Origin: Candidatus Omnitrophica bacterium CG11_big_fil_rev_8_21_14_0_20_63_9
Lineage (GTDB): Bacteria; Omnitrophota; Gorgyraeia; Aquiviventales; Aquiviventaceae
Direction: 5' to 3'
Length of the DNA: 36,122 bases
Assembly (NCBI GenBank): GCA_002796105.1
Contig: PCVX01000087.1
Span: forward strand, 1-36,122
The position numbers and the translations under genes are program-made. Below, in pieces: positions 3-35,518 of the stretch. How positions within the stretch are numbered: the stretch's first letter is position 1; every line of letters starts with the position of its first letter. The notes beneath the pieces were generated by a model. That model did no database searches and had not been told where the DNA came from. It saw only the letters and a program-made list of their open reading frames with translations.

Positions 3-1325
3 ACGTTGCAGTATGCCTGGGACTTGGGTGACGGAACGACGGCAGAAGGCGCGGAGGTAACCCATACCTATGCCCGCGGCGGCGCCTATCCGATCAAGCT
101 CATGGTGGATGACGGCCAGGGAACCGCCTGTTCGCGAGTGCAGGCCGTCGGGGCGATTCGTGTGAACGCTTCACCGATCGCCAAGGCGAATGACGCCATC
201 GTGATGTGCGCCCGCAGTGCCGAAGAGCCGCAGGCGGTGACGTTCAGCGCCGCCGGTTCTCTCGACCCGGACAACAACAAGCTCACCTACCGGTGGGACT
301 TCGGAGACGGAGCGACCGGCGAGGGGGCGAAAGTCAACCATGCCTATAAAAAAGGCGGCCACTATACAGCAAAACTCTCAGTCGATGATGGCTCAGGAAC
401 GGGTTGCGCCCTCTCGACTGCCAGCGTGCCCGTCACGATCAACCACGCGCCTCTTGCGCGTGTGAACCAACAAGAAGTGACGACCTGCGGAGGAGAGGCG
501 CTCACGTTCGATGCCGGGAGCTCCTCGGATCCCGATGGCGATGTTCTCGCCTACCGCTGGGACTTCGGAGACGGCGAAACCGGTACCGGAGCCAAGGTCT
601 CGCACCGGTATGCGAAGGGTGGGACGTACCGCGTCAGTGTCGTGGTGGATGATGGCAGCGGCCTGGCCTGCGCGCTCAGTAGCGCGAATGTCATCGCCCG
701 AGCCAATACCCCGCCACGTGCGGTGATGAGCGCCAAGGCGCAGGGCTGTGTGAATCAGGCCCTGTCTTTCGATGCGACGAACTCGAGTGATCCTGAAGGC
801 CAGCGGCTGACCTATCGTTGGGACTTCGGAGACGGCGCGACCGCCGAAGGGGCCAAAGCGCAACATACCTATGCCAAGGGCGGCAAGTACCCGGTCGCAC
901 TAACGGTGGATGACGGCCAGGAAACGGCTTGCGATCTCGCCGTCGCCAAGGGCGAAGCCAGTATCAACACCCCGCCGAAGGCACACGCGGGTCCTAACTC
1001 GGTGTGCTGTCTCAATGCCGTCACCGCGTTCGATGCCTCCCAGTCCACTGATGCTGACGGTGACCAACTGACCTACCGTTGGGACTTCGGCGATGGGACC
1101 ACGGCCGAGGGAGCCAAGGGGCAACACGTCTACAAGAAAATCGGCATCTACCAGGTGCGCGTGCTTGCCAGCGACAACAGCAGCGGCGCCTGCAGCGTCT
1201 CCTCAGCCGGATTTTTCGCAAAGGTGGAAGCGAAACCGGTGGCCAATATGGAGATCAGCAGCGAAGGGAAAGGTATCACTCCTACCGCAGGGGAACTGGC
1301 GGCTGATCTGAAGCAGAATCGCTGA
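3..1325 (+). CDS. PKD-repeat protein, 5' end missing
   Basis: This is the 3' part of a protein built almost entirely of PKD-type beta-sandwich repeats. Five copies of the W-D-F/L-G-D-G core are visible; the Trp codons lie at 18, 294, 558, 819 and 1080, a period of 261-276 nt. Each repeat also carries an S-x-D-P/A-D-G-type loop, an H-x-Y-x-K-G-G segment and a conserved Cys near its end, so one disulfide per repeat is possible. The frame is open to the window edge and the first codons fall inside a repeat, so the true start is upstream. PKD repeats are usually extracellular adhesion or spacer modules. There is no C-terminal anchor or sorting signal; the tail is a charged, helix-like stretch. 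The function of the whole protein is unknown. Confidence 0.85.
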   Translation, partial: TLQYAWDLGDGTTAEGAEVTHTYARGGAYPIKLMVDDGQGTACSRVQAVGAIRVNASPIAKANDAIVMCARSAEEPQAVTFSAAGSLDPDNNKLTYRWDFGDGATGEGAKVNHAYKKGGHYTAKLSVDDGSGTGCALSTASVPVTINHAPLARVNQQEVTTCGGEALTFDAGSSSDPDGDVLAYRWDFGDGETGTGAKVSHRYAKGGTYRVSVVVDDGSGLACALSSANVIARANTPPRAVMSAKAQGCVNQALSFDATNSSDPEGQRLTYRWDFGDGATAEGAKAQHTYAKGGKYPVALTVDDGQETACDLAVAKGEASINTPPKAHAGPNSVCCLNAVTAFDASQSTDADGDQLTYRWDFGDGTTAEGAKGQHVYKKIGIYQVRVLASDNSSGACSVSSAGFFAKVEAKPVANMEISSEGKGITPTAGELAADLKQNR

Positions 1326-2826: not shown

Positions 2827-3468
2827 ATGAAAAGCGCGAGAATTCTTTTAGCTGTCGTGTCCGTCATGGTATTAGGGCGCATGTCATACGCTCAGAACAG
2901 CACGGCGGTGCTGGCCCCTTCTTCTCAATCGGCGATTGATTTCAGGCTTGCCTTACGAGCGCTCTGGCAGTACCAAGTCACCTGGACGAGGAGCTATGTC
3001 GTTAGCGTGCTGTCTAACCTCGACGACGCCGATTCAGTAGAACGCAAGCTCGTGAAGAACCAGGAGCAGATCGGCAATGTCATCAAGCCGTATTATGGCG
3101 GCCTGGCGGGTAACCGGCTGGCCGTATTGCTCAGAGAGCACATCGTGATCGCCGTCGAAATCGTCAGGGCGATCAAGGCGAACGATCAGGACGCGCTACG
3201 CAACGCGCAGGCAACGGGCCGTGAGAACGCCAACGCTATTGCGAATTTGTTAAGCAGAGCCAAAAACCCTCTGTGGGACAGGCATTCATTAGAACAGGTA
3301 TTCTACAAGCATCTGGAGTACGTCACCATGCAGGTTGACTATCGGCTCAAGCAGGATTGGGCCTCGGAAATCAGCGCCTATGATGCCGGGCTTCAGCATG
3401 TGCTGCTGCTCGCGGATATTTTGGCGGAGGGCGTCGTACGGCAATTTCCTGAGAAGTTTACGGAGTAG
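2827..3468 (+). CDS. Secreted helical protein of unknown function
   Basis: A 213-residue protein with a clear signal peptide (K-S-A-R, hydrophobic core, cleavage near S-Y-A-Q at about residue 22). The mature part looks all-helical. It carries a conserved-looking series: L-W-Q-Y-Q-V-T-W-T-R near residue 50, N-Q-E-Q-I-G-N-V-I-K-P-Y-Y-G near 80-93, L-L-R-E-H-I-V-I-A near 103, and F-P-E-K-F at the end. I recall similar conserved hypothetical proteins, sometimes mislabelled glycosyltransferase, with the same N-Q-x-x-I-G and H-I patterns, but no biochemical function. The repeated His and Asn/Gln positions in a helical bundle could bind a ligand or metal; that is speculation. Confidence 0.75.
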   Translation: MKSARILLAVVSVMVLGRMSYAQNSTAVLAPSSQSAIDFRLALRALWQYQVTWTRSYVVSVLSNLDDADSVERKLVKNQEQIGNVIKPYYGGLAGNRLAVLLREHIVIAVEIVRAIKANDQDALRNAQATGRENANAIANLLSRAKNPLWDRHSLEQVFYKHLEYVTMQVDYRLKQDWASEISAYDAGLQHVLLLADILAEGVVRQFPEKFTE

Positions 3469-3497
3469 GACAAAACCGTGGAAGGGAGGTGAGCACA

Positions 3498-3617
3498 ATG
3501 GCAAAGAAAAGCCGAGGGGGTCGAATAACCGCAGCGAAGCGGCGGGCCGCTAAGGCGCCCGGTGGGCGCGGAAGCGTGAAGAATCGTCGAGCTGGACGAA
3601 CGATTATGGCCACGTAG
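3498..3617 (+). CDS. 39-residue highly basic protein
   Basis: A very short ORF preceded by a strong ribosome-binding site (GGGAGGTGAG, 5 nt before ATG). The product is dominated by Lys, Arg, Gly and Ala (start M-A-K-K-S-R-G-G-R, later A-A-K-R-R-A-A-K-A and K-N-R-R-A-G-R). It has no hydrophobic segment and no acidic residue that I can see. Such a composition fits nucleic-acid binding or a disordered stress protein. I do not recognise the family. It sits between two envelope-protein genes in the same orientation. Confidence 0.6.
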   Translation: MAKKSRGGRITAAKRRAAKAPGGRGSVKNRRAGRTIMAT

Positions 3618-3635
3618 AAACATCGGAGGATAGAA

Positions 3636-3881
3636 ATGAACAAACAATTCCTTGCACTGGTGGTGCTGGGTGCGCTGGCTGCAGGATGCACCAGTGAGTT
3701 CTGGAAAGGCGGAGGCGCGGGCGCCGCGGCAGGGGTCGTCGGTACCGGTGCCGGCTATGAGCTTCGAGCGCGGCAGCAAATGCAACAGCTCGAAGCGGAT
3801 TATAAAGCCGGACGTATCAACCAACACGACTATGAAACTCGGAAAGACCAGATCCAAAAAGGCTCAGTCTTCTATAACTAA
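3636..3881 (+). CDS. Small lipoprotein with glycine-rich segment
   Basis: An 81-residue lipoprotein: signal peptide with lipobox L-A-A-G-C at about residues 14-18, then a Gly/Ala-rich stretch (G-G-G-A-G-A-A-A-G-V-V-G-T-G-A-G-Y-E) resembling a glycine zipper. An amphipathic charged tail follows, with the pattern L-E-A-D-Y-K-A-G-R-I-N-Q-H-D-Y-E-x-R-K-D-Q-I and a final S-V-F-Y. The gene at 20369 encodes a paralogue with the same three-part layout and the same ending (R-K-D-x-x-x, S-V-V-Y). The tail resembles a short SHOCT-like oligomerisation helix pair. It is probably outer-membrane anchored; role unknown. GGAGG lies 10-14 nt before the ATG. Confidence 0.8.
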   Translation: MNKQFLALVVLGALAAGCTSEFWKGGGAGAAAGVVGTGAGYELRARQQMQQLEADYKAGRINQHDYETRKDQIQKGSVFYN

Positions 3882-3917
3882 CGTCGGAAACCGCATCACA
3901 TATGCGCGGAGCAGTTG

Positions 3918-4133
3918 ATGGAGGGTCCCTGGATAAAAACCATCCTGACCGTCTTTGGCGTCCTCTTCGCGATCGGTGGCGCCGTCGGCGCCTTCCTGCA
4001 GGCCAAGTGGCTGCTTGATCAGCGCAGGACCTTGCGAGGGATTCTGGACGTATTGCAAGCCATGCGGGTCGACGGCATCAAGAGGCGGGTCATCTCGAAT
4101 CCGGTGACGCCATCCCCGATGTTCAAGGATTGA
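3918..4133 (+). CDS. Small single-pass membrane protein
   Basis: A 71-residue protein with one N-terminal transmembrane helix (I-L-T-V-F-G-V-L-F-A-I-G-G-A-V-G-A-F-L) followed by a basic cytoplasmic tail (K-W-L-L-D-Q-R-R-T-L-R-G-I-L-D-V-L-Q). ATG 3918 follows GCGGAG; TTG 3915 is the only longer in-frame alternative nearby. I do not recognise a family. It belongs to the run of tiny envelope genes. Confidence 0.55.
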   Translation: MEGPWIKTILTVFGVLFAIGGAVGAFLQAKWLLDQRRTLRGILDVLQAMRVDGIKRRVISNPVTPSPMFKD

Positions 4134-4222
4134 GCTACGACGCGTCTGATGGCTCCAGAGTTCGAAGGGAAACGACTGGCGTAAGAATCGGTGAATGGGG
4201 GAACATGAACTGGAGGTCTGAG

Positions 4223-4444
4223 ATGAGACCGAAGATCTTATTTGGGATGATACTGCTCGTTGTCGGGATTGCGGCATTGGCGTACCAGGGTATTACGTAT
4301 ACCACCAGAGAAAAGGCTCTCGACCTTGGCTCCGTCCAGGTGACGACTGAAACAACCAAAAATATTCCTTTCTCGCCGGTTGTCGGAGTGATCGCGCTGG
4401 TCGGTGGCATCGCGTTGCTGACCCTGAACACCAGGAAGGCCTGA
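4223..4444 (+). CDS. DUF3185-like small membrane protein
   Basis: A 73-residue protein with two transmembrane helices (about residues 6-24 and 50-68) and a short periplasmic loop, Y-T-T-R-E-K-A-L-D-L-G-S-V-Q-V-T. The pattern L-L-V-V-G-I-A-A-L-A-Y-Q-G-I-T-Y-T-T-R-E-K is one I associate with DUF3185-like small inner-membrane proteins. The start is ATG 4223 because GGAGG is placed 6 nt upstream. In-frame codons upstream (from 4130) look non-coding. Confidence 0.75.
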   Translation: MRPKILFGMILLVVGIAALAYQGITYTTREKALDLGSVQVTTETTKNIPFSPVVGVIALVGGIALLTLNTRKA

Positions 4445-4486
4445 CATCGTGTCGCCGGCGTGCCTGAATAGCAACGGGAGGGCGAG

Positions 4487-4837
4487 ATGGATAGAGCAGA
4501 ATTAGAGATGCTCGTAGGCGCACAGGATGATGACCTGTTTGGCTCAGCACCCACCGAAACTACGGTCGTATTAGCACGCAGAGACGGGTCGTTAATGACA
4601 CCGCTTGGGTTGGCGGCGGGAGAAGTGTTGATTGAGATTGAGTGGTCGGGAGCCGCGACGTTGCGTCAGCTCATCCGGAAATTGGACCGGCCAGTGTATC
4701 TGGTCATGATGGCGGTGGGGGTCCTCATCCGGCAAGGTTTGGTGCGGGCCACGCAGCGGGAGCTGGAGGTGCTCGTTGAGCCAATACTGGAATGGGTCAG
4801 AGTACCCCGGGTCAACGCCATGGCATCTCAGGCGTAG
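4487..4837 (+). CDS. Unknown 116-residue protein, possible winged-helix
   Basis: A soluble protein with no signal peptide. After a polar N-terminus, residues 50-95 read as alternating helices and a strand (A-T-L-R-Q-L-I-R-K-L-D-R-P-V-Y-L-V-M-M-A-V-G-V-L-I-R-Q-G-L-V). This resembles the helix-turn-helix plus wing layout of winged-helix proteins. I cannot name a family. GGGAGGG precedes the ATG. The 3' end overlaps the longest possible start of the next gene by 46 nt, so the two may be co-translated. Confidence 0.65.
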   Translation: MDRAELEMLVGAQDDDLFGSAPTETTVVLARRDGSLMTPLGLAAGEVLIEIEWSGAATLRQLIRKLDRPVYLVMMAVGVLIRQGLVRATQRELEVLVEPILEWVRVPRVNAMASQA

Positions 4838-7161
4838 AACCGTGGAATACAGCCAAGGGTTTCTCTTGGGCAGACCGAGCTGACATGCTCCGCAGCCGGA
4901 TCGCATGGTGGGCTGTGCGGTGGCTCGCCCGTTCGCAGGGGTTCCTCGATCCCGTTTCAGTGCTGAAGCAGCTGGAACAATTTGGGCAACCCGCTGACGT
5001 GCTAGCCCCCGGGGAACTGCTTCGGGCTGGTGCGGTGATGCATGCCCGGGGCATGATGAACACCCAGGCCATTCAGCATAACCTGGATTGGGTGTGGCCC
5101 TATTGGGTGGTCCGGCAGTTTGATCCCGCGGACCCCGCGTTTGTGCCGCGGGCTTTCTCGTTAACGCATATCAACCTGACCCATCGGAATTGGACCGCCG
5201 TCGGTCTGCCGGATGTCCCTGAGCTTCCCATCGTTGATCCGCGCGGCCTGGTGACCCCCTGGCTTGCCGGCTGGTCGTTGGATGGATGGATCGTGACGCA
5301 TGACCGCCGGGCGCTCTTCCCCTCGCAGACGCTGACGGGATCTCAGCGATTGCTCCACGAAGGTAGGTTGACCGTGGTCACGGAGACGTGTCAGGGAGCC
5401 CTCACCCTGCGCTCGATGGCGGAGGTGATCGATGTGGGGGGCGTGCCCACCTGCCAGATCCGCCTGCTTGGATGGGCGGACACCGCCGGGTGGCTTGTGG
5501 CGGCCCTGCGCCCGTATAACCCGGAGGGCGTCAGCCCGATCCACCGCATTGACGTCGTATCGGATCGCACCGGCTGGATCGTGAATGGGCAACATCCGGT
5601 CGCATTTGCCGCCCCGCCGCAGCGCTTTGTTTCTTCCCATTACCGATTGGGCGATGTTGCCACCCAGCTTTCGATGACGAAGGAAGAGCCTCGAACCGAG
5701 TGTCCTGTCGGGTTGGCCACGGCAGCGGCGCTCTTTCCACTGGTGCCCGGGACCCCGGTAGAGGTCACGATCCATGTCCCACTGGTGGAGTCTCGCAAGC
5801 ACGCGCACACCACCGCACACCCCATCGGCACGCTCTCCTCATGGGACCACGCGCTGGCCGGGCATTGCCTGTTGCAGGTGCCGGATGCTCACTGGCAGTT
5901 TTTGTATGAAACGGCGGTACGCACGCTGATTCTTCATGGGCCGGGAGATGTCTATGCCGGGCCGTACACCTACAAGCGCTTTTGGTTTCGCGATGCCGCG
6001 TTTATTATCCACGCGATGCTCTGCGCGGGGTTGACGCACCGCGCCGAACGCGCCCTGGACCGGTTTCCAAGCCGCCAGACCCCGCTGGGCTATTTCCGGT
6101 CGCAAGAGGGGGAATGGGATTCAAACGGCCAAGCCCTGTGGATCTTGCAGCGCTTCTGCGAGATGACGGCTCGTCCGCCGAAGCCGCAATGGTCGCACGC
6201 CATCGCCCGGGCCGGACGGTGGATTCAACGCAAACGGCTCTCCCCGCGCCTCACCCATCCACACGCCGGGTTGCTCCCAGCCGGCTTCAGCGCAGAACAC
6301 CTGGGTCCGAATGACTACTACTATTGGGATGATTTCTGGGCGGTGGCCGGGCTGCGAGCGGCGGCATCGCTGACCGAGGCCGATCACCAGCCTTCGCTGG
6401 CCGACTCGTTTCGACGCGAGGCCGATGACCTGCTGACGTGTATTGATCGCAGTCTTGAGTTTGTCCGGCACCGCCTGAGTCATCTCGCCGTCCCCGCCTC
6501 CGTGTATCGGCGGATGGACGCTGGAGCCGTGGGATCATTGGCCGCCAGCTACCCACTCCAGCTGTGGGCGCCGGATGACTCCCGGATACAGACAACGGTC
6601 AATTTCCTGCTGACGAACTGTTTCTTCAAAGGCGGGTTCTTCCACAGCATCAGCCACTCCGGCATCAATCCGTATCTCACGCTCCATGTCGCCCAGGTGC
6701 TGCTGCGCTCAGCAGATCTGCGGCACCAGGAGGTAATGCGGGCGATCACCGAGCTGGCGAGTCCGACCGGCCAATGGCCCGAGGCCGTGCATCCCACAAC
6801 GCGGGGTGGCTGCATGGGCGATGGCCAGCATGTTTGGGCCGCGGCGGAATGGCTGCTGATGGTCAGGAATAGCTTCGTTCGTGAAGAAGGGCGCGATCGC
6901 CTGGTGTTGTGTTCAGGTCTTCCGCCGGCTTGGTGTGATCAGCCGGCGACGTTCTCCTTCGGACCGGCTCCGACGTCCCATGGGACCGTGTCGGTCTCCG
7001 TACGCGCGGACGGCCAGACCATTGTGGTGTCGTGGAGCGGTCAATGGCATGCGTCCGTTCCGGCGATTGACGTGCACCTGCCCGGCTACCCGTGCATGGC
7101 CGCTCGGAGCCATCAGAGCGAAATGACCATCAAGCGGAACGCCCTCCAGGTGGGGGGATGA
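4792..7161 (+). CDS. Glycoside-hydrolase-like (alpha/alpha)6-barrel protein
   Basis: A large cytoplasmic protein (up to 789 residues, no signal peptide). Residues 20-340 form a beta-rich N-terminal region. Residues 365-690 resemble the six-hairpin glycosidase fold of GH15/amylo-glucosidase-type enzymes: R-F-W-F-R-D-A-A-F at 396-404, Q-E-G-E-W-D-S-N-G-Q-A-L-W around 438-450, N-D-Y-Y-Y-W-D-D-F-W-A, and G-Q-W-P-E-A-V-H-P. A small beta domain closes the protein. The acidic residues in these motifs are plausible catalytic acids, but substrate and activity are unknown. The stop codon overlaps the glycosyltransferase start (ATGA), so the pair is probably co-translated. The start is uncertain: 4792 overlaps the previous gene, 4885 avoids this, and neither has a clear ribosome-binding site. 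Confidence 0.75.
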   Translation: MGQSTPGQRHGISGVEPWNTAKGFSWADRADMLRSRIAWWAVRWLARSQGFLDPVSVLKQLEQFGQPADVLAPGELLRAGAVMHARGMMNTQAIQHNLDWVWPYWVVRQFDPADPAFVPRAFSLTHINLTHRNWTAVGLPDVPELPIVDPRGLVTPWLAGWSLDGWIVTHDRRALFPSQTLTGSQRLLHEGRLTVVTETCQGALTLRSMAEVIDVGGVPTCQIRLLGWADTAGWLVAALRPYNPEGVSPIHRIDVVSDRTGWIVNGQHPVAFAAPPQRFVSSHYRLGDVATQLSMTKEEPRTECPVGLATAAALFPLVPGTPVEVTIHVPLVESRKHAHTTAHPIGTLSSWDHALAGHCLLQVPDAHWQFLYETAVRTLILHGPGDVYAGPYTYKRFWFRDAAFIIHAMLCAGLTHRAERALDRFPSRQTPLGYFRSQEGEWDSNGQALWILQRFCEMTARPPKPQWSHAIARAGRWIQRKRLSPRLTHPHAGLLPAGFSAEHLGPNDYYYWDDFWAVAGLRAAASLTEADHQPSLADSFRREADDLLTCIDRSLEFVRHRLSHLAVPASVYRRMDAGAVGSLAASYPLQLWAPDDSRIQTTVNFLLTNCFFKGGFFHSISHSGINPYLTLHVAQVLLRSADLRHQEVMRAITELASPTGQWPEAVHPTTRGGCMGDGQHVWAAAEWLLMVRNSFVREEGRDRLVLCSGLPPAWCDQPATFSFGPAPTSHGTVSVSVRADGQTIVVSWSGQWHASVPAIDVHLPGYPCMAARSHQSEMTIKRNALQVGG

Positions 7162-8438
7162 ATATCCTGATGATGTCCAACACCTACACGCCGCTGGCCG
7201 GCGGCTTAGAGCGATCCATCAAGAGCTTTGCGACGGCCTACCGCAAGCGCGGCCACCGGGTCCTCCTGGTTGCTCCAGCGTTTGATCGCATGCCTCGCCG
7301 GGAGCAGGGCGTGCTTCGTGTCGCGGCTATTCCGCGCATTGGGGGCAGTGCCTTTTCCGCCCGCTTGCCGATCCCGGGCTTGCTGGAGCATGTGTCGGAA
7401 GTATTTCAGCCGGACGTCGTCCACGCACATCATCCGTTTCTCATGGGCGACACCGCGTTGCGAATCGCTTCTCTGAGACAGGTTCCACTGGTCTTTACGC
7501 ACCATGTCTTATTCGAACAGTACACGCGGTGTCTGCTCCCTCTGCGCACAAACGTCGCTCAGCGGTTTGTAATCGATTTGGCTACCGGGTTCTCGAATCT
7601 GTGCGATCAGATCTTCGCCCCAAGCCAGAGCGTGGCCGAGTTGTTGCACAAAAGGGGGGTGACCGCGCCGGTTGACGTGGTGCCCACCGGTGTCGATCTG
7701 GCCCGCTTCAGGGGAGGAAACCGCGCACAACTGCGCAAGGCGGCCAACCTTCCGGCCGATGCCTTCGTCGTGGGGCACTTGGGCCGGCTGGCCCTGGAGA
7801 AGAATCTGCGCTTTCTGGCCACGGCAGTGGCTTCGTTTCTCCGCGAGGAACCGCGCGGGTGGTTTATCATCGGCGGTCAAGGGCCGGGCGAAGCGATGAT
7901 TCGCCAGGTCTGCCGGGATGCTGGGGTGGATGGCCGATTGCGTGTGTTGGGAGAGCTCAAGGGCCACTGGCTCGCGGATGCCTATCATCTGATGGATGTT
8001 TTCGTGTTCGCCTCGCAGAGCGAAACCCAAGGCTTAGTCCTCGTTGAGGCGATGTCGGCCGGCGTGCCCGTGGTGGCCGTGGACGCGCCTGGGGTGCGCG
8101 ATGTCGTCATCGACGGGCACAACGGACGGCTGTTGCCAACAGAGAACAGCCGCCAGTTTGCCGCAGCACTGCACGGGATAAGCGCTCTGACGGTCGGGCA
8201 GCGGGACGCGATGCTCCGGAACGTCTATGCCACCGCAAAACAACTGTCGATGACGCTCTGCGCGGAGCGGGCCCTCAAGTTCTACTCGGTGCTAATTGCC
8301 AGATCCCACAAGAGGCGTATCAAAGATGTGCGGTACTGGGCTCGGGTCAAGCGCAGTTTGCACACCGAGATGCTGATTCTGAAGAAGACCGTTCATGCCA
8401 CACAGGTCCTGATCGAGGAGGCGTGCGCGCATGCGTAA
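7158..8438 (+). CDS. GT4-family glycosyltransferase
   Basis: A 426-residue GT-B fold glycosyltransferase of family 4 (retaining, nucleotide-sugar donor). The N-domain has the Gly-rich acceptor loop (N-T-Y-T-P-L-A-G-G-L-E-R-S, residues 8-20) and V-V-H-A-H-H-P-F at 87-94. The C-domain has G-H-L-G-R-L-A-L-E-K-N at 206-216 and the E-x7-E donor motif, E289 to E297, followed by E-A-M-S-A-G-V-P-V-V. The early H-H-P-F...F-T-H-H region resembles diacylglycerol glucosyltransferases, so a lipid or glycerol-type acceptor is possible; that is inference. GGTGGGGGG lies just before ATG 7158, and the start overlaps the upstream stop by 4 nt. A basic C-terminal helix may bind membrane. Confidence 0.88.
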   Translation: MNILMMSNTYTPLAGGLERSIKSFATAYRKRGHRVLLVAPAFDRMPRREQGVLRVAAIPRIGGSAFSARLPIPGLLEHVSEVFQPDVVHAHHPFLMGDTALRIASLRQVPLVFTHHVLFEQYTRCLLPLRTNVAQRFVIDLATGFSNLCDQIFAPSQSVAELLHKRGVTAPVDVVPTGVDLARFRGGNRAQLRKAANLPADAFVVGHLGRLALEKNLRFLATAVASFLREEPRGWFIIGGQGPGEAMIRQVCRDAGVDGRLRVLGELKGHWLADAYHLMDVFVFASQSETQGLVLVEAMSAGVPVVAVDAPGVRDVVIDGHNGRLLPTENSRQFAAALHGISALTVGQRDAMLRNVYATAKQLSMTLCAERALKFYSVLIARSHKRRIKDVRYWARVKRSLHTEMLILKKTVHATQVLIEEACAHA

Positions 8439-8475
8439 GGGCCGCAACGGGTTTCTCAGATAGTGCTGAGGTTGC

Positions 8476-8610
8476 ATGGTGGCATTTCTGGTAAATTGTG
8501 AAGTAATTGTCTATCATGAGGACAAAATAAGGCTGCTCACCGGCCTCCTCCAGCTCGGGGTCCCAGACGAAAGAGGCTTGCTGGAGGTTGAGTCTGGTCA
8601 GGGACTCTAA
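8476..8610 (+). CDS. Possible 44-residue protein
   Basis: The 198-nt gap after the glycosyltransferase holds an ORF starting M-V-A-F-L-V-N-C-E-V-I-V-Y-H-E-D and ending L-L-E-V-E-S-G-Q-G-L. Its mix of hydrophobic and charged residues looks protein-like rather than random. TGAGG lies 5 nt before the ATG. The stop codon runs into a T-run (TAATTTTTT), and GAGTC/GACTC can pair just before it, giving a weak terminator overlapping the 3' end. I do not recognise it. It could equally be a remnant of a longer gene. Apart from this I see nothing definite in the gap. Confidence 0.35.
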   Translation: MVAFLVNCEVIVYHEDKIRLLTGLLQLGVPDERGLLEVESGQGL

Positions 8611-8636
8611 TTTTTTGCCACCATCTTTCAGCTTCC

Positions 8637-31289: not shown

Positions 31290-32366
31290 ATGACTGTGAC
31301 ATCTGAACATATCCTCAAGGCGCTCCGGGCCGTCCAAGACCCTGACTTGAAGCGGGACATCGTCTCGCTGGGGTTCATCAAACACCTCACGATCGAGGGC
31401 GGCAAGGTCGCGTTTCAAATCGAGCTCACCACCCCGGCGTGTCCGGTGAAAGACCTCCTACGCGAGGAGGCGCGTACAGCTGTAGCGGCGATCCCGGGTG
31501 TGACATCGGTTGAGATCGGCATGACCTCCCAGGTGCGCTCCTCGGTAGCGCTCCCGCCCACGATGGGCCCGCTGGCCATTAAGAACATCGTGCCCATCGC
31601 CAGCGGCAAGGGCGGGGTAGGCAAGTCGACGGTGAGCGCGAATTTGGCGCTGGCACTTGCCCGCAGTGGCGCGCGCGTCGGCTTGATGGATGCGGACGTC
31701 TACGGGCCAAGCATCCCGACCATCCTCGGTATCCCGCACCAGCAGCCTGAGGTGGACGCGCAAAACCGCATCAGCCCGATTGAGCAATATGGCATCAAAG
31801 TGGTCTCGATGGGGTTTTTCATGAAGCCCGAAGAGGCGGTGATCTGGCGCGGGCCGATGTTGCATAAGACCGTCCAGCAATTCCTGGGTGGGGTGCTGTG
31901 GGGCGAGCTGGATTATCTGCTCGTCGATCTGCCGCCTGGGACCGGCGACGTGCAGCTCTCATTGTGCCAGACGATCCCGATTACCGGTGCGGTGATCGTC
32001 TCCACGCCGCAGGATGTGGCGCTCAACGTCGCGCAAAAGGCGGTGGCGATGTTCAAGAAGCTGAACGCGCCGATCCTGGGCGTGATCGAGAACATGAGCT
32101 ACTACGTGTGCGCGCACTGCGGCACGCGAGAGGACATCTTCGGCACGGGCGGGGCGCGGCAGATCGCGCAGCGGCTTGAGCTGCCGTTTCTGGGTGAGAT
32201 TCCGCTGGCGACGCCGATCCGCGTGGCGTCGGATGCGGGCAAGCCGGTGATTCTCACCGAGCCCGCGTCACCCGGGGCGCAAGCGTTTGTGAAGGCCGCC
32301 GAGCAGCTCGCCGCGCAGGTGAGCATCCGTGCGCTGCAGAGCGAGACGGTTAAGGTAACGTTCTGA
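31290..32366 (+). CDS. Mrp/ApbC Fe-S carrier P-loop ATPase
   Basis: A 358-residue Mrp/ApbC/NBP35-family protein. The N-terminal MIP18/DUF59 domain (about 1-80) has D-P-D-L and T-x-x-A-C-P. The P-loop G-K-G-G-V-G-K-S-T spans 106-114, followed by D-A-D-V-Y-G-P-S-I-P and L-V-D-L-P-P-G-T-G-D. The cluster-binding C274-x2-C277 lies in Y-Y-V-C-A-H-C-G. The family holds and delivers Fe-S clusters. It starts 51 nt after gltB (itself an Fe-S enzyme), and DUF971 and a cysteine-desulfurase homologue follow, so an Fe-S context is clear. Confidence 0.94.
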   Translation: MTVTSEHILKALRAVQDPDLKRDIVSLGFIKHLTIEGGKVAFQIELTTPACPVKDLLREEARTAVAAIPGVTSVEIGMTSQVRSSVALPPTMGPLAIKNIVPIASGKGGVGKSTVSANLALALARSGARVGLMDADVYGPSIPTILGIPHQQPEVDAQNRISPIEQYGIKVVSMGFFMKPEEAVIWRGPMLHKTVQQFLGGVLWGELDYLLVDLPPGTGDVQLSLCQTIPITGAVIVSTPQDVALNVAQKAVAMFKKLNAPILGVIENMSYYVCAHCGTREDIFGTGGARQIAQRLELPFLGEIPLATPIRVASDAGKPVILTEPASPGAQAFVKAAEQLAAQVSIRALQSETVKVTF

Positions 32367-32444
32367 TGGAGCATGGCGGGGCTTGTCAAAATCAGATGCG
32401 AAGGCGGCCGGGGCCCCCGCTTCGCGTCACCCGCCCGCTACACA

Positions 32445-32795
32445 ATGATGGCTGAGACGACGCAGCCGCAGCCTCGTGAGATCACGCGCGCCGGAGAGCA
32501 CGACGTCAAAATCATCTGGCAGGATGGACATGAGAGCGTGTACCCGGCCCGCGCGCTGCGCCTTGCGTGCCCGTGCGCCGGCTGCGTGGATGAGATGACC
32601 GGCGTGGTGCGGCTGATCGACACCTCGATTTCTCACGACGTCCATCCGGTGAAGATCGACCTCGTCGGCCGCTACGCGATCTCGATTACGTGGTCGGACA
32701 GCCACCGTACGGGGATTTACTCGTTCGATCTACTGCGAAAACTTTGCTCGTGCTGTCAGGGGCAGGGGGCGAGAGATGTGGGGCGGGGGCAGTGA
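32445..32795 (+). CDS. DUF971 family protein
   Basis: A small protein (116 residues from ATG 32445) of the DUF971 family, the domain also found at the N-terminus of gamma-butyrobetaine hydroxylase. Signature: V-K-I-I-W-Q-D-G-H-E-S-V-Y, the Cys-rich A-C-P-C-A-G-C-V-D-E-M-T-G, and I-T-W-S-D-S-H-R-T-G-I-Y-S-F. DUF971 is often found next to or fused with Mrp/ApbC, consistent with an Fe-S or metal role. An extra C-S-C-C follows near its end. ATG 32373 is a longer alternative start; neither start has a strong ribosome-binding site. Confidence 0.85.
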   Translation: MMAETTQPQPREITRAGEHDVKIIWQDGHESVYPARALRLACPCAGCVDEMTGVVRLIDTSISHDVHPVKIDLVGRYAISITWSDSHRTGIYSFDLLRKLCSCCQGQGARDVGRGQ

Positions 32796-32807: not shown

Positions 32808-33158
32808 ATGTATGAGATCAGCTTGGAAGGCCCTGGGAAGATTTTTTCCGAAATCAAAGCACAGCCTCCGCTGATGCAAGAGCAGGAAAGATCAATGTAT
32901 GTTGGTAAGGAAGTCGACTGGACACTGCTGTTTGCCGATGGCTATGAAGCCTCGCCAGGTGTTGCGAGAGTTATGTTTCGCAGTGAACCAAACGTGTTGC
33001 AATTCGTTGCCATGAATGTGCGACTTGCTGACTACCCGTGGCTCAAGTCGATGCACCGCGGCGAGGTAGTGAGAGTCCGTGGGCGAATTAGCGGTTTTAG
33101 CGCCTTGAGCGTTGAATTGAAGAACGCTGACCTTTTGCAGCTTGCCGAGGCCGCTTAG
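32808..33158 (+). CDS. Small OB-fold-like protein of unknown function
   Basis: A 116-residue soluble protein with strand-rich pattern: Y-V-G-K-E-V-D-W-T-L-L-F-A-D, V-A-R-V-M-F-R, then G-E-V-V-R-V-R-G-R-I-S-G-F, V-E-L-K-N-A-D-L. The G-x-V-V-R-V-R-G-R-I segment is typical of OB folds, which bind nucleic acid or small ligands. GGAGG precedes ATG 32808. The G+C content is visibly lower than in its neighbours, a sign of possible later arrival. It sits between DUF971 and the cysteine-desulfurase homologue with short gaps. Confidence 0.65.
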   Translation: MYEISLEGPGKIFSEIKAQPPLMQEQERSMYVGKEVDWTLLFADGYEASPGVARVMFRSEPNVLQFVAMNVRLADYPWLKSMHRGEVVRVRGRISGFSALSVELKNADLLQLAEAA

Positions 33159-33167
33159 TACGACACC

Positions 33168-34325
33168 ATGCGCATTTACCTTGATTACGTATCAAGTACG
33201 CCGGTGCTGCCGGAGGTGAGGGCGGCGATGGCGGAGGCGCTGGAAAAGGGCGCCAATCCGTCGTCAATCCATCAGGCTGGGCAGAAGGCGAGAGAGCGGC
33301 TGGAGAAAGCGCGCAAGCAGGTAGCCGCGCTGATCCACGCGAAGCCTGCGGAAATCTATTTCACCTCCTGCGGGACCGAGTCGAACAACTGGGCGCTGCG
33401 CGGGCTGATGGCAGCGAATAAGCGCAAGGGCAATCACATCAGCGTCTCCGCCATCGAGCATCCGTCGGTTTCACTCGTGGCGCGCCGGCTGGAGCTTGAA
33501 GGCGCTGCGAAGGTCACGATTCTTCCGGTGGATGGCGATGGGATCGTCTCAGCGCAAGCGCTCAAACAGTTACTCACGCCGCAAACGGTGCTGGTGTCGG
33601 TGATGCTGGCCAACGGCGAGGTCGGCACGATCGAGCCGATCAAGGAGATGGCCGCGATCGCGCACGAGCAGGGCGCCTTGTTCCATACTGATGCGATTGC
33701 GACGGTCGGGCACAACCCTGTGGACGTAAAAGCGCTCGGGGTGGATGCGCTGAGCATGAGCGCGAACCAGTTCTACGGTCCGCCGGGCGCTGCAGCACTG
33801 TTTGTGCGCGATGGCGTGCGGATCCTGCCGCTGCTTGAAGGGGGCGGGCAGGAAACCGGCGCGCGCTCAGGCACCGAGGCGCTGCCGGCGATCGTGGGGA
33901 TGGGAGCGGCCGCGGAGATTGCGAAGCGCGAGCTGCCAAGTCGCATGGCGCGACTGAGCATGCTGCGCGATCGGTTGCGCGATGGGCTCAAGGAGCGCAT
34001 CGAAGGGCTTCGGCTCAACGGGTCATGGAGTTCGCGACTGCCGCACAATCTGCATATTTGCATCGACGGCGTGTCCAGCGAATCGCTGGTGCTGGGGTTG
34101 GATCAAGCCGGCATCGCCGCCGGCCTTGGCTCGGCGTGCAACTCGAAGTCCATGCGGCCCTCGCATGTGCTCAAAGCCATGGGCTTGACCGATGAACAAG
34201 CCAAGGGCGCGTTGGTGCTGAGCCTCGGTGAGCAGACGACCGAGAAAGAGATCGACCGGGCGCTGGAACTCATCCCGTCCGTCGTGCAGAAGCTCCGCAA
34301 CGTCACGGCATTGACCGCGCGATGA
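33168..34325 (+). CDS. NifS/IscS-like protein lacking the PLP lysine
   Basis: A 385-residue fold-type I protein aligned end to end with NifS/IscS cysteine desulfurases: Y-L-D-Y-V-S-S-T-P, T-S-C-G-T-E-S-N-N, E-H98-P-S (stacking His), D175 in F-H-T-D-A, and the loop Cys C324 in G-S-A-C-N-S. The PLP-bearing S-A-H-K of the family reads S-A-N200-Q201, so the Schiff-base Lys is missing, and the Gln near D175 reads Ala178. The reading frame is intact, so this is not decay by frameshift. Either it is a non-PLP or altered-chemistry subfamily, or an inactive scaffold. Its stop overlaps the next start (ATGA). Confidence 0.85.
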   Translation: MRIYLDYVSSTPVLPEVRAAMAEALEKGANPSSIHQAGQKARERLEKARKQVAALIHAKPAEIYFTSCGTESNNWALRGLMAANKRKGNHISVSAIEHPSVSLVARRLELEGAAKVTILPVDGDGIVSAQALKQLLTPQTVLVSVMLANGEVGTIEPIKEMAAIAHEQGALFHTDAIATVGHNPVDVKALGVDALSMSANQFYGPPGAAALFVRDGVRILPLLEGGGQETGARSGTEALPAIVGMGAAAEIAKRELPSRMARLSMLRDRLRDGLKERIEGLRLNGSWSSRLPHNLHICIDGVSSESLVLGLDQAGIAAGLGSACNSKSMRPSHVLKAMGLTDEQAKGALVLSLGEQTTEKEIDRALELIPSVVQKLRNVTALTAR

Positions 34326-35518
34326 AATATATCATCCTCTTACCCGATGGCGTGGCGGATGTGCCGATCAACGAGCTCGGCAACAAAACGCCCCTGGAGG
34401 TCGCCAAGCATCCGAACATGGACTGGGTGGCGCGCGAAGGTGTCACGGGGTGGAACCATACCATTCCCTCAGGCTTCCCGCCAGGGTCGGACGTGGGCTG
34501 CATGAGCGTTTTCGGCTACGATCCGCGCAAATACCACACTGGCCGTGCACCGCTTGAAGCGGCGGCCCAAGGCATCGCGCTCAAGCCCGGACAAGTGGCC
34601 TTCCGCTGCAACACGCTCACGGTTGAACACGGCGTGATGGTGGACCACTCCGCCGATCACATCACGACTGAAGAGTCCAAACAGCTCATCGAGGCGATCA
34701 GCGGGCGACTCGGCAAGGACGCCGCGCGCTATTATCCGGGTGTCAGTTACCGCCATCTCATGGTGATCGACGGCGCTGAGTACGCGAAGACACAGTGCAC
34801 GCCGCCGCATGACATCCTTGGCAAGCGCATCGATGAGTATTTGCCGAAGGGGCCAGGCGCTGAGCTGCTGCGCCGGCACATGGAGCAATCGGTCGGCATC
34901 CTGAAAGATCATGCGGTCAGCAAGCAGCGCAGCCAGCAAGGCAAGCGAGCGGCGACGATGACGTGGTTTTGGGGGCAAGGGACCGCGGTGCAGTTTCCGC
35001 CCTTTGCGCAGGCGTATAAGAAGAAGGCGGCGTGCATCAGCGCGGTGGACATCGTGCGAGGCATCGCGCGGCTGGCCGGGATGGAGATCCTGCAGGTGCC
35101 GGGGATCACCGGTTACTTCGATACCAACTACGAGAACAAAGCCGACTACGCGCTCAAAGCGCTCGATGAAGGCTTCGACCTTGTGGTCGTGCACGTTGAG
35201 TCCACCGACGAAGCCGGCCACATGGGCGATCCCAAGAAGAAAGTGCAGGCGATCGAAGATGTGGACCGCCGGCTGCTGGGACGGCTGCTCGATGGGCTGC
35301 GCAAGCGCAACGAGCCGTTTGCGGTCCTGATCACGCCGGACCATCCCACCAGCTGTGCGCTGCGCACGCACATCGCCGACCCGGTGCCATTTGCGCTGTA
35401 TGCAACAGGAACTTCCAAAGGCGGCGCGCCGTCGTATAATGAGCCATCGATCAAGGCATCGGCCAAGCGGTTCGAGGAAGGGTATCAGCTCATGTCATTT
35501 TTCTTAAGCCACTCGTAA
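34322..35518 (+). CDS. apgM: 2,3-BPG-independent phosphoglycerate mutase, archaeal type
   Basis: A 398-residue ApgM-type phosphoglycerate mutase, an alkaline-phosphatase-superfamily enzyme that interconverts 3- and 2-phosphoglycerate. Metal and nucleophile motifs: L-L-P-D9-G-V-A-D, P-P-G-S-D-V-G-C-M-S62-V-F-G-Y-D-P (Ser nucleophile), V-E-S-T-D-E-A-G-H-M-G-D, and T-P-D-H-P-T. The length matches the family. It overlaps the desulfurase homologue by 4 nt (ATGA), so translation is coupled. A ribosome-binding site is not evident. Confidence 0.92.
   Translation: MKYIILLPDGVADVPINELGNKTPLEVAKHPNMDWVAREGVTGWNHTIPSGFPPGSDVGCMSVFGYDPRKYHTGRAPLEAAAQGIALKPGQVAFRCNTLTVEHGVMVDHSADHITTEESKQLIEAISGRLGKDAARYYPGVSYRHLMVIDGAEYAKTQCTPPHDILGKRIDEYLPKGPGAELLRRHMEQSVGILKDHAVSKQRSQQGKRAATMTWFWGQGTAVQFPPFAQAYKKKAACISAVDIVRGIARLAGMEILQVPGITGYFDTNYENKADYALKALDEGFDLVVVHVESTDEAGHMGDPKKKVQAIEDVDRRLLGRLLDGLRKRNEPFAVLITPDHPTSCALRTHIADPVPFALYATGTSKGGAPSYNEPSIKASAKRFEEGYQLMSFFLSHS

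Follow-up and report, generated by a model that had tools for sequence, protein, structure and literature searches.

IscS is regarded as the engine that releases sulfur for the assembly of iron-sulfur clusters. The locus described here raises the question of what a protein of this fold does when its PLP-anchoring lysine is missing. The window (the whole stretch of DNA analysed, 36,122 nucleotides) is contig C87 of an Omnitrophota metagenome-assembled genome of 1.86 Mb that is 84% complete. Its forward strand carries, at positions 33168–34325, an intact open reading frame with an ATG start that encodes 385 amino acids. The predicted protein matches PF00266 (aminotransferase class V) at 234 bits (2.8e-69) in a Pfam profile search. 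Its best NCBIfam model is TIGR03402 (NifS), where the score of 439.7 bits falls below the curated equivalog cut-off of 530.75 bits. The AlphaFold model has a pLDDT of 93, and the sole segment below 50 (residues 325–328) is the mobile loop directly after Cys324. Foldseek places the IscS of Archaeoglobus fulgidus (AfIscS) among the best IscS-structure matches to this model (TM 0.92–0.97), and together with the PF00266 match this assigns the protein to the aminotransferase class V fold. Three same-family orthologues (L022, L023 and L034) carry lineage-specific insertions of ~35–65 residues with a high content of Ala, Gly, Pro and Arg, in the region matching residues 250–292 of the window protein.

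The active site was examined by alignment to E. coli IscS, which also serves as the numbering reference. The codons AAC CAG at 33765–33770 encode Asn200 and Gln201 in place of the PLP-anchoring His205-Lys206, giving the motif SANQFYGPP where the family has S-A-H-K. Ala178 (33699–33701) occupies the position of Gln183, which is hydrogen-bonded to the phenolate oxygen of PLP (PMC9978102). Both replacements had been read from the sequence by the first-pass annotation, along with an intact frame and the retention of Cys324, His98 and Asp175, and translation and alignment bear out each of these observations. Two changes are additional to those it named: Val350 (34215–34217) replaces the substrate-positioning Arg354, with LVLSLG where canonical enzymes have xRFSLG, and Gly150 replaces Asn155. 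The retained residues include Cys324 (34137–34139), the persulfide or ligand cysteine, which lies in the sequence GSACNSK and corresponds to Cys328 of the mobile-loop GSACxS motif. The PLP pocket also keeps His98 (His104), Asp175 (Asp180) and Thr70. The canonical group I NifS/IscS proteins, like MisS of the MIS system, thus share the fold, the loop cysteine, His104 and Asp180 with the window protein, but they have the PLP lysine, Gln183, His205 and Arg354, all of which it has lost (Gln201, Ala178, Asn200 and Val350, respectively). In E. coli IscS, K206A and Q183E each lack desulfurase activity (PMC9978102). Loss of all four residues would preclude covalent PLP binding and the processing of cysteine, and the window protein almost certainly has no desulfurase activity.

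A lone non-canonical codon pair in a metagenome assembly would fit a sequencing error or a decaying pseudogene, and the first-pass annotation had proposed that His-Lys in near relatives would point to such an error. The same-family Omnitrophota orthologues (61–79% identity) lack the lysine in 17 of 17 genomes where the motif is covered, and none has His-Lys. Most have N-Q at these positions, with D-Q, P-Q, S-Q, N-T, N-L and N-A as variants. Lys-less members also occur in three further Omnitrophota families, namely a sister family (G027), family f18 (G074, G098 and G361) and that of G049, which belongs to the same class as the window. Among the Planctomycetota, 16 of 294 sampled genomes have a Lys-less member, including Brocadia (anammox-type), and Kuenenia hertensis has one too. 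His-Lys is present in the other homologues read from Omnitrophota and Planctomycetota, those from Omnitrophota being 44–49% identical to the window protein. When trait columns were removed before tree building, the bacterial Lys-less proteins grouped in a single clade, with support of 98 in the quick tree and 100/99 in the careful one. The suggestion that N-Q or N-x might define a clade is therefore upheld, and the bacterial Lys-less proteins have a single origin. Pairwise dN/dS for Lys-less pairs is 0.06–0.26, well below 1, which indicates that these proteins are maintained by purifying selection. Error or decay was rejected as having a negligible probability, given open frames under such selection and a loss common to 17 same-family and 16 Planctomycetota genomes.

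The four losses travel together. All Lys-less proteins also lack Gln183 (A, S or T instead), His205 (replaced by N, D, P, S or G) and Arg354 (replaced by V, L, I or T). Thr76, His104, Asp180 and Cys328 are kept in every Lys-less homologue wherever covered, and the cysteine and its loop are invariant throughout the clade. No Lys-bearing homologue has the full set of four losses. Type I homologues with the lysine all keep the arginine; a single one has another residue for the glutamine (Ala, in the tandem IscS of G049) and a single one for the histidine (Ser, in L096). In-frame stops had been flagged in some His-Lys homologues as a possible loop selenocysteine; G033, G111 and G294 have no stop within the aligned part, and this candidate was rejected.

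Lys-less IscS is already known, from two archaea. The closest likeness is to AfIscS (PDB 4eb5, 4eb7 and 4hvk; D199K mutant 4r5f), which has the same fold and 43–45% identity to the window protein; the sequence used here matches PDB 4eb5 over its whole length. AfIscS has the same four losses (Lys to Asp, His to Asn, Gln to Ala and Arg to Leu), visible as DATAS at the glutamine, SSND at the His-Lys pair and LLLTLG at the arginine, and it keeps the loop cysteine. It is reported to be inactive as a desulfurase and to donate a cysteine ligand to the [2Fe-2S] cluster that IscU carries (PMC7585200). IscS1 of Methanosarcina acetivorans is also reported to lack the catalytic lysine and has been suggested to act like AfIscS (PMC7585200); this protein, likewise archaeal and discussed with its IscU1, is likened to the window protein by its published description. 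AfIscS and the bacterial Lys-less proteins group together in the quick tree (78%) and fall apart in the careful one, and an AU test does not reject a single clade that includes AfIscS (p = 0.246). AfIscS may be an independent case of lysine loss. Literature searches covering anammox bacteria, Planctomycetes and other organisms turned up no Lys-less cysteine desulfurase besides the archaeal cases. They also yielded no description of the bacterial clade or its operons, of a Lys-less gene in tandem with one for a Lys-bearing IscS, or of an IscU-free form beside mrp.

The retention of His98, Asp175 and Thr70 could also indicate that PLP or another ligand is bound non-covalently and that a different reaction is catalysed. 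PLP is shown in the A. fulgidus IscS-IscU structure according to a figure legend in PMC9769115, and all Planctomycetota members have Gln at site 201. However, in Omnitrophota the same site varies between Q, T, L and A (P in G361) and the substrate arginine is lost everywhere, a pattern unlike that of a re-specialised active site. Such new chemistry appears very improbable.

In Planctomycetota, 14 of 16 loci have iscU downstream of the Lys-less nifS gene, and 13 have tusA; the domains of these IscU and TusA neighbours were confirmed. In some anammox lineages (e.g. L049:6180-6734, L079:5485-6039 and several of L180–L187) a gene for a Uma2-family protein (putative endonuclease) separates the Lys-less nifS from iscU, while the two genes are adjacent in others. 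The IscS/IscU pairing of the MIS system (MisS-MisU) is likewise present in Planctomycetota relatives but not in the window genome. The IscU-contacting C-terminal helix of E. coli IscS spans Arg379–Lys391 (PMC2854127), and the SPLY C-terminus is kept in AfIscS and in 12 of 12 Planctomycetota Lys-less members examined. In the anammox Planctomycetota the partner of the Lys-less protein would thus very probably be IscU.

The presence of tusA in this cluster bears on a further possibility, in which the loop cysteine acts as a sulfur carrier, receiving sulfane sulfur that SufS, a canonical IscS, TusA or sulfide chemistry has produced and handing it to the next acceptor. The invariance of Cys324 and its loop agrees with a relay of this kind, as do a SufS encoded in the window genome and an active-type IscS in tandem in G049. 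In the window family, however, no link between the gene and a sulfur-transfer protein was found, and the best precedent, that of A. fulgidus, favours a ligand role. A persulfide relay therefore seems unlikely as the main function, although the relay and ligand readings are close and not mutually exclusive.

In G049 the Lys-less gene comes first in an operon of the order nifSx-iscS(His-Lys)-iscU-iscA-hscA-fdx, where nifSx denotes the Lys-less gene. The tandem Lys-less NifS and Lys-bearing IscS genes that head this ISC operon overlap (L157, about 3316–8627, minus strand). IscU is encoded here, yet the Lys-less protein is without the SPLY motif. Overlapping genes of this type would suit a regulatory or decoy subunit that forms mixed dimers with active IscS, or occupies IscU, and so tunes ISC activity; the canonical, Lys-bearing paralogues also carried by anammox genomes would offer it a target. 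The window family, on the other hand, has neither a canonical type I IscS/NifS nor an IscU to regulate, and a regulatory function for the clade is improbable.

In the window, the Lys-less gene lies in a cluster on the forward strand. An Mrp/ApbC iron-sulfur carrier ATPase with FeS_assembly_P and ParA/NUBPL domains and a CAHC motif (31290–32366), a candidate partner by its domains and synteny, is followed by a protein with a DUF971/GBBH-like N-terminal domain (32373–32795; PF06155, 1.7e-28). Between the latter and the Lys-less gene is a 116-amino-acid protein (32808–33158) that matches no Pfam or NCBIfam model; it is conserved in part of the relatives, with homologues at 39–48% identity in some related loci. 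A cofactor-independent phosphoglycerate mutase of the apgM type (34322–35518) overlaps the stop codon of the Lys-less gene, which makes co-transcription probable. The order in the window family is gltB-mrp-(DUF971)-(116 aa)-nifSx-apgM-aminopeptidase, with mrp upstream of the Lys-less gene in all 10 of the 10 genomes with enough flank read. In the sister family mrp lies directly upstream (mrp-nifSx-apgM), and in family f18 neither iscU nor mrp adjoins the gene. Since mrp, gltB, apgM and the aminopeptidase gene form a general cluster in one lineage, adjacency may not mean interaction. In relatives the cluster continues downstream with folE (GTP cyclohydrolase I) and thiC (radical SAM; L164:12654-15662 and similar loci). 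At the other end of the window (3–1325) is part of a large protein with repeated WDFGDG.. domains resembling PKD repeats, which runs off the contig start.

The first-pass annotation had asked for a second, canonical IscS or SufS in the genome. Family searches for paralogues located a SufS on contig C62, with SufU and two SufB/D proteins; no canonical type I IscS/NifS was found in the window family, where the next-closest paralogue is the distant SufS. This SufS belongs to the same superfamily and is the strongest PF00266 protein of the genome (530.9 bits). It differs from the window protein in keeping the PLP lysine (AFSSHK) and in being encoded with SufU and SufB/D. No IscU-type scaffold was found in the window genome, where the sole NifU_N protein is the SufU beside SufS. 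As the genome is 84% complete, this absence is weak alone, and the point is carried by the family-wide pattern: in 19 of 19 window-family genomes having NifU_N there is exactly one, beside a SufS-like gene. The C-terminus of the window protein (LRNVTALTAR, 34293–34322, forward strand) has also lost the (M/L)SPL(Y/W) motif of the IscU-contacting helix; where other proteins have the segment LRxMSPLY, the window family has VTALT or similar. The window protein differs in both respects from AfIscS, which keeps this motif and binds IscU.

Taken with the genomic context, these features suggest that the window protein likely takes part in assembling or transferring iron-sulfur clusters. Mrp/ApbC acts as a carrier or scaffold for such clusters. 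The idea of a changed role tied to iron-sulfur metabolism, raised in the first-pass annotation, is strengthened by Mrp in the window and by IscU, TusA or an ISC operon in relatives, while no part in it is assigned here to DUF971, also invoked there. Its more specific proposal of a sulfur-binding scaffold stands as one option, but the AfIscS precedent involves a cysteine ligand rather than sulfur, and in the window family IscU is not found and the docking motif is lost. The preferred reading, on balance a probable one, is that the clade supplies a non-catalytic IscS-fold partner in cluster assembly or transfer, working with Mrp/ApbC in the window family and with IscU in Planctomycetota. The protein would form an IscS-like dimer and present the mobile-loop Cys324 to a scaffold or carrier, where this residue would either serve as a cluster ligand, as in the model for A. 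fulgidus IscS, or hold a persulfide in transit. With no IscU-type scaffold found and the IscU-docking C-terminus lost, the partner in the window family would be expected to be Mrp/ApbC, encoded just upstream and taking the place of IscU; identifying Mrp itself as that partner falls just short of an even chance. ApbC and IscU are reported to be partly redundant (title of Boyd 2008, cited in PMC6345978), which makes such a swap plausible. Sulfur would be supplied by the SufS-SufU-SufB/D system encoded elsewhere in the genome. More tentatively, the window family could represent a dead IscS freed of IscU that serves as a cysteine-ligand or persulfide platform for Mrp/ApbC, an ISC-derived, desulfurase-free side arm of a SUF-only cell, with the anammox version forming a dead-IscS/IscU/TusA assembly unit.

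Homology annotation would label the Lys-less proteins as cysteine desulfurases, although that chemistry is almost certainly absent. In the literature searched, the use of IscS as a non-catalytic ligand or platform so far rests on one crystallised archaeal protein. A bacterial clade under selection, with the same four losses and operons that include IscU, TusA or a Lys-bearing IscS, suggests that such a non-catalytic role is recurrent, and it provides a number of natural cases for telling what IscS does structurally from what it does as a catalyst.
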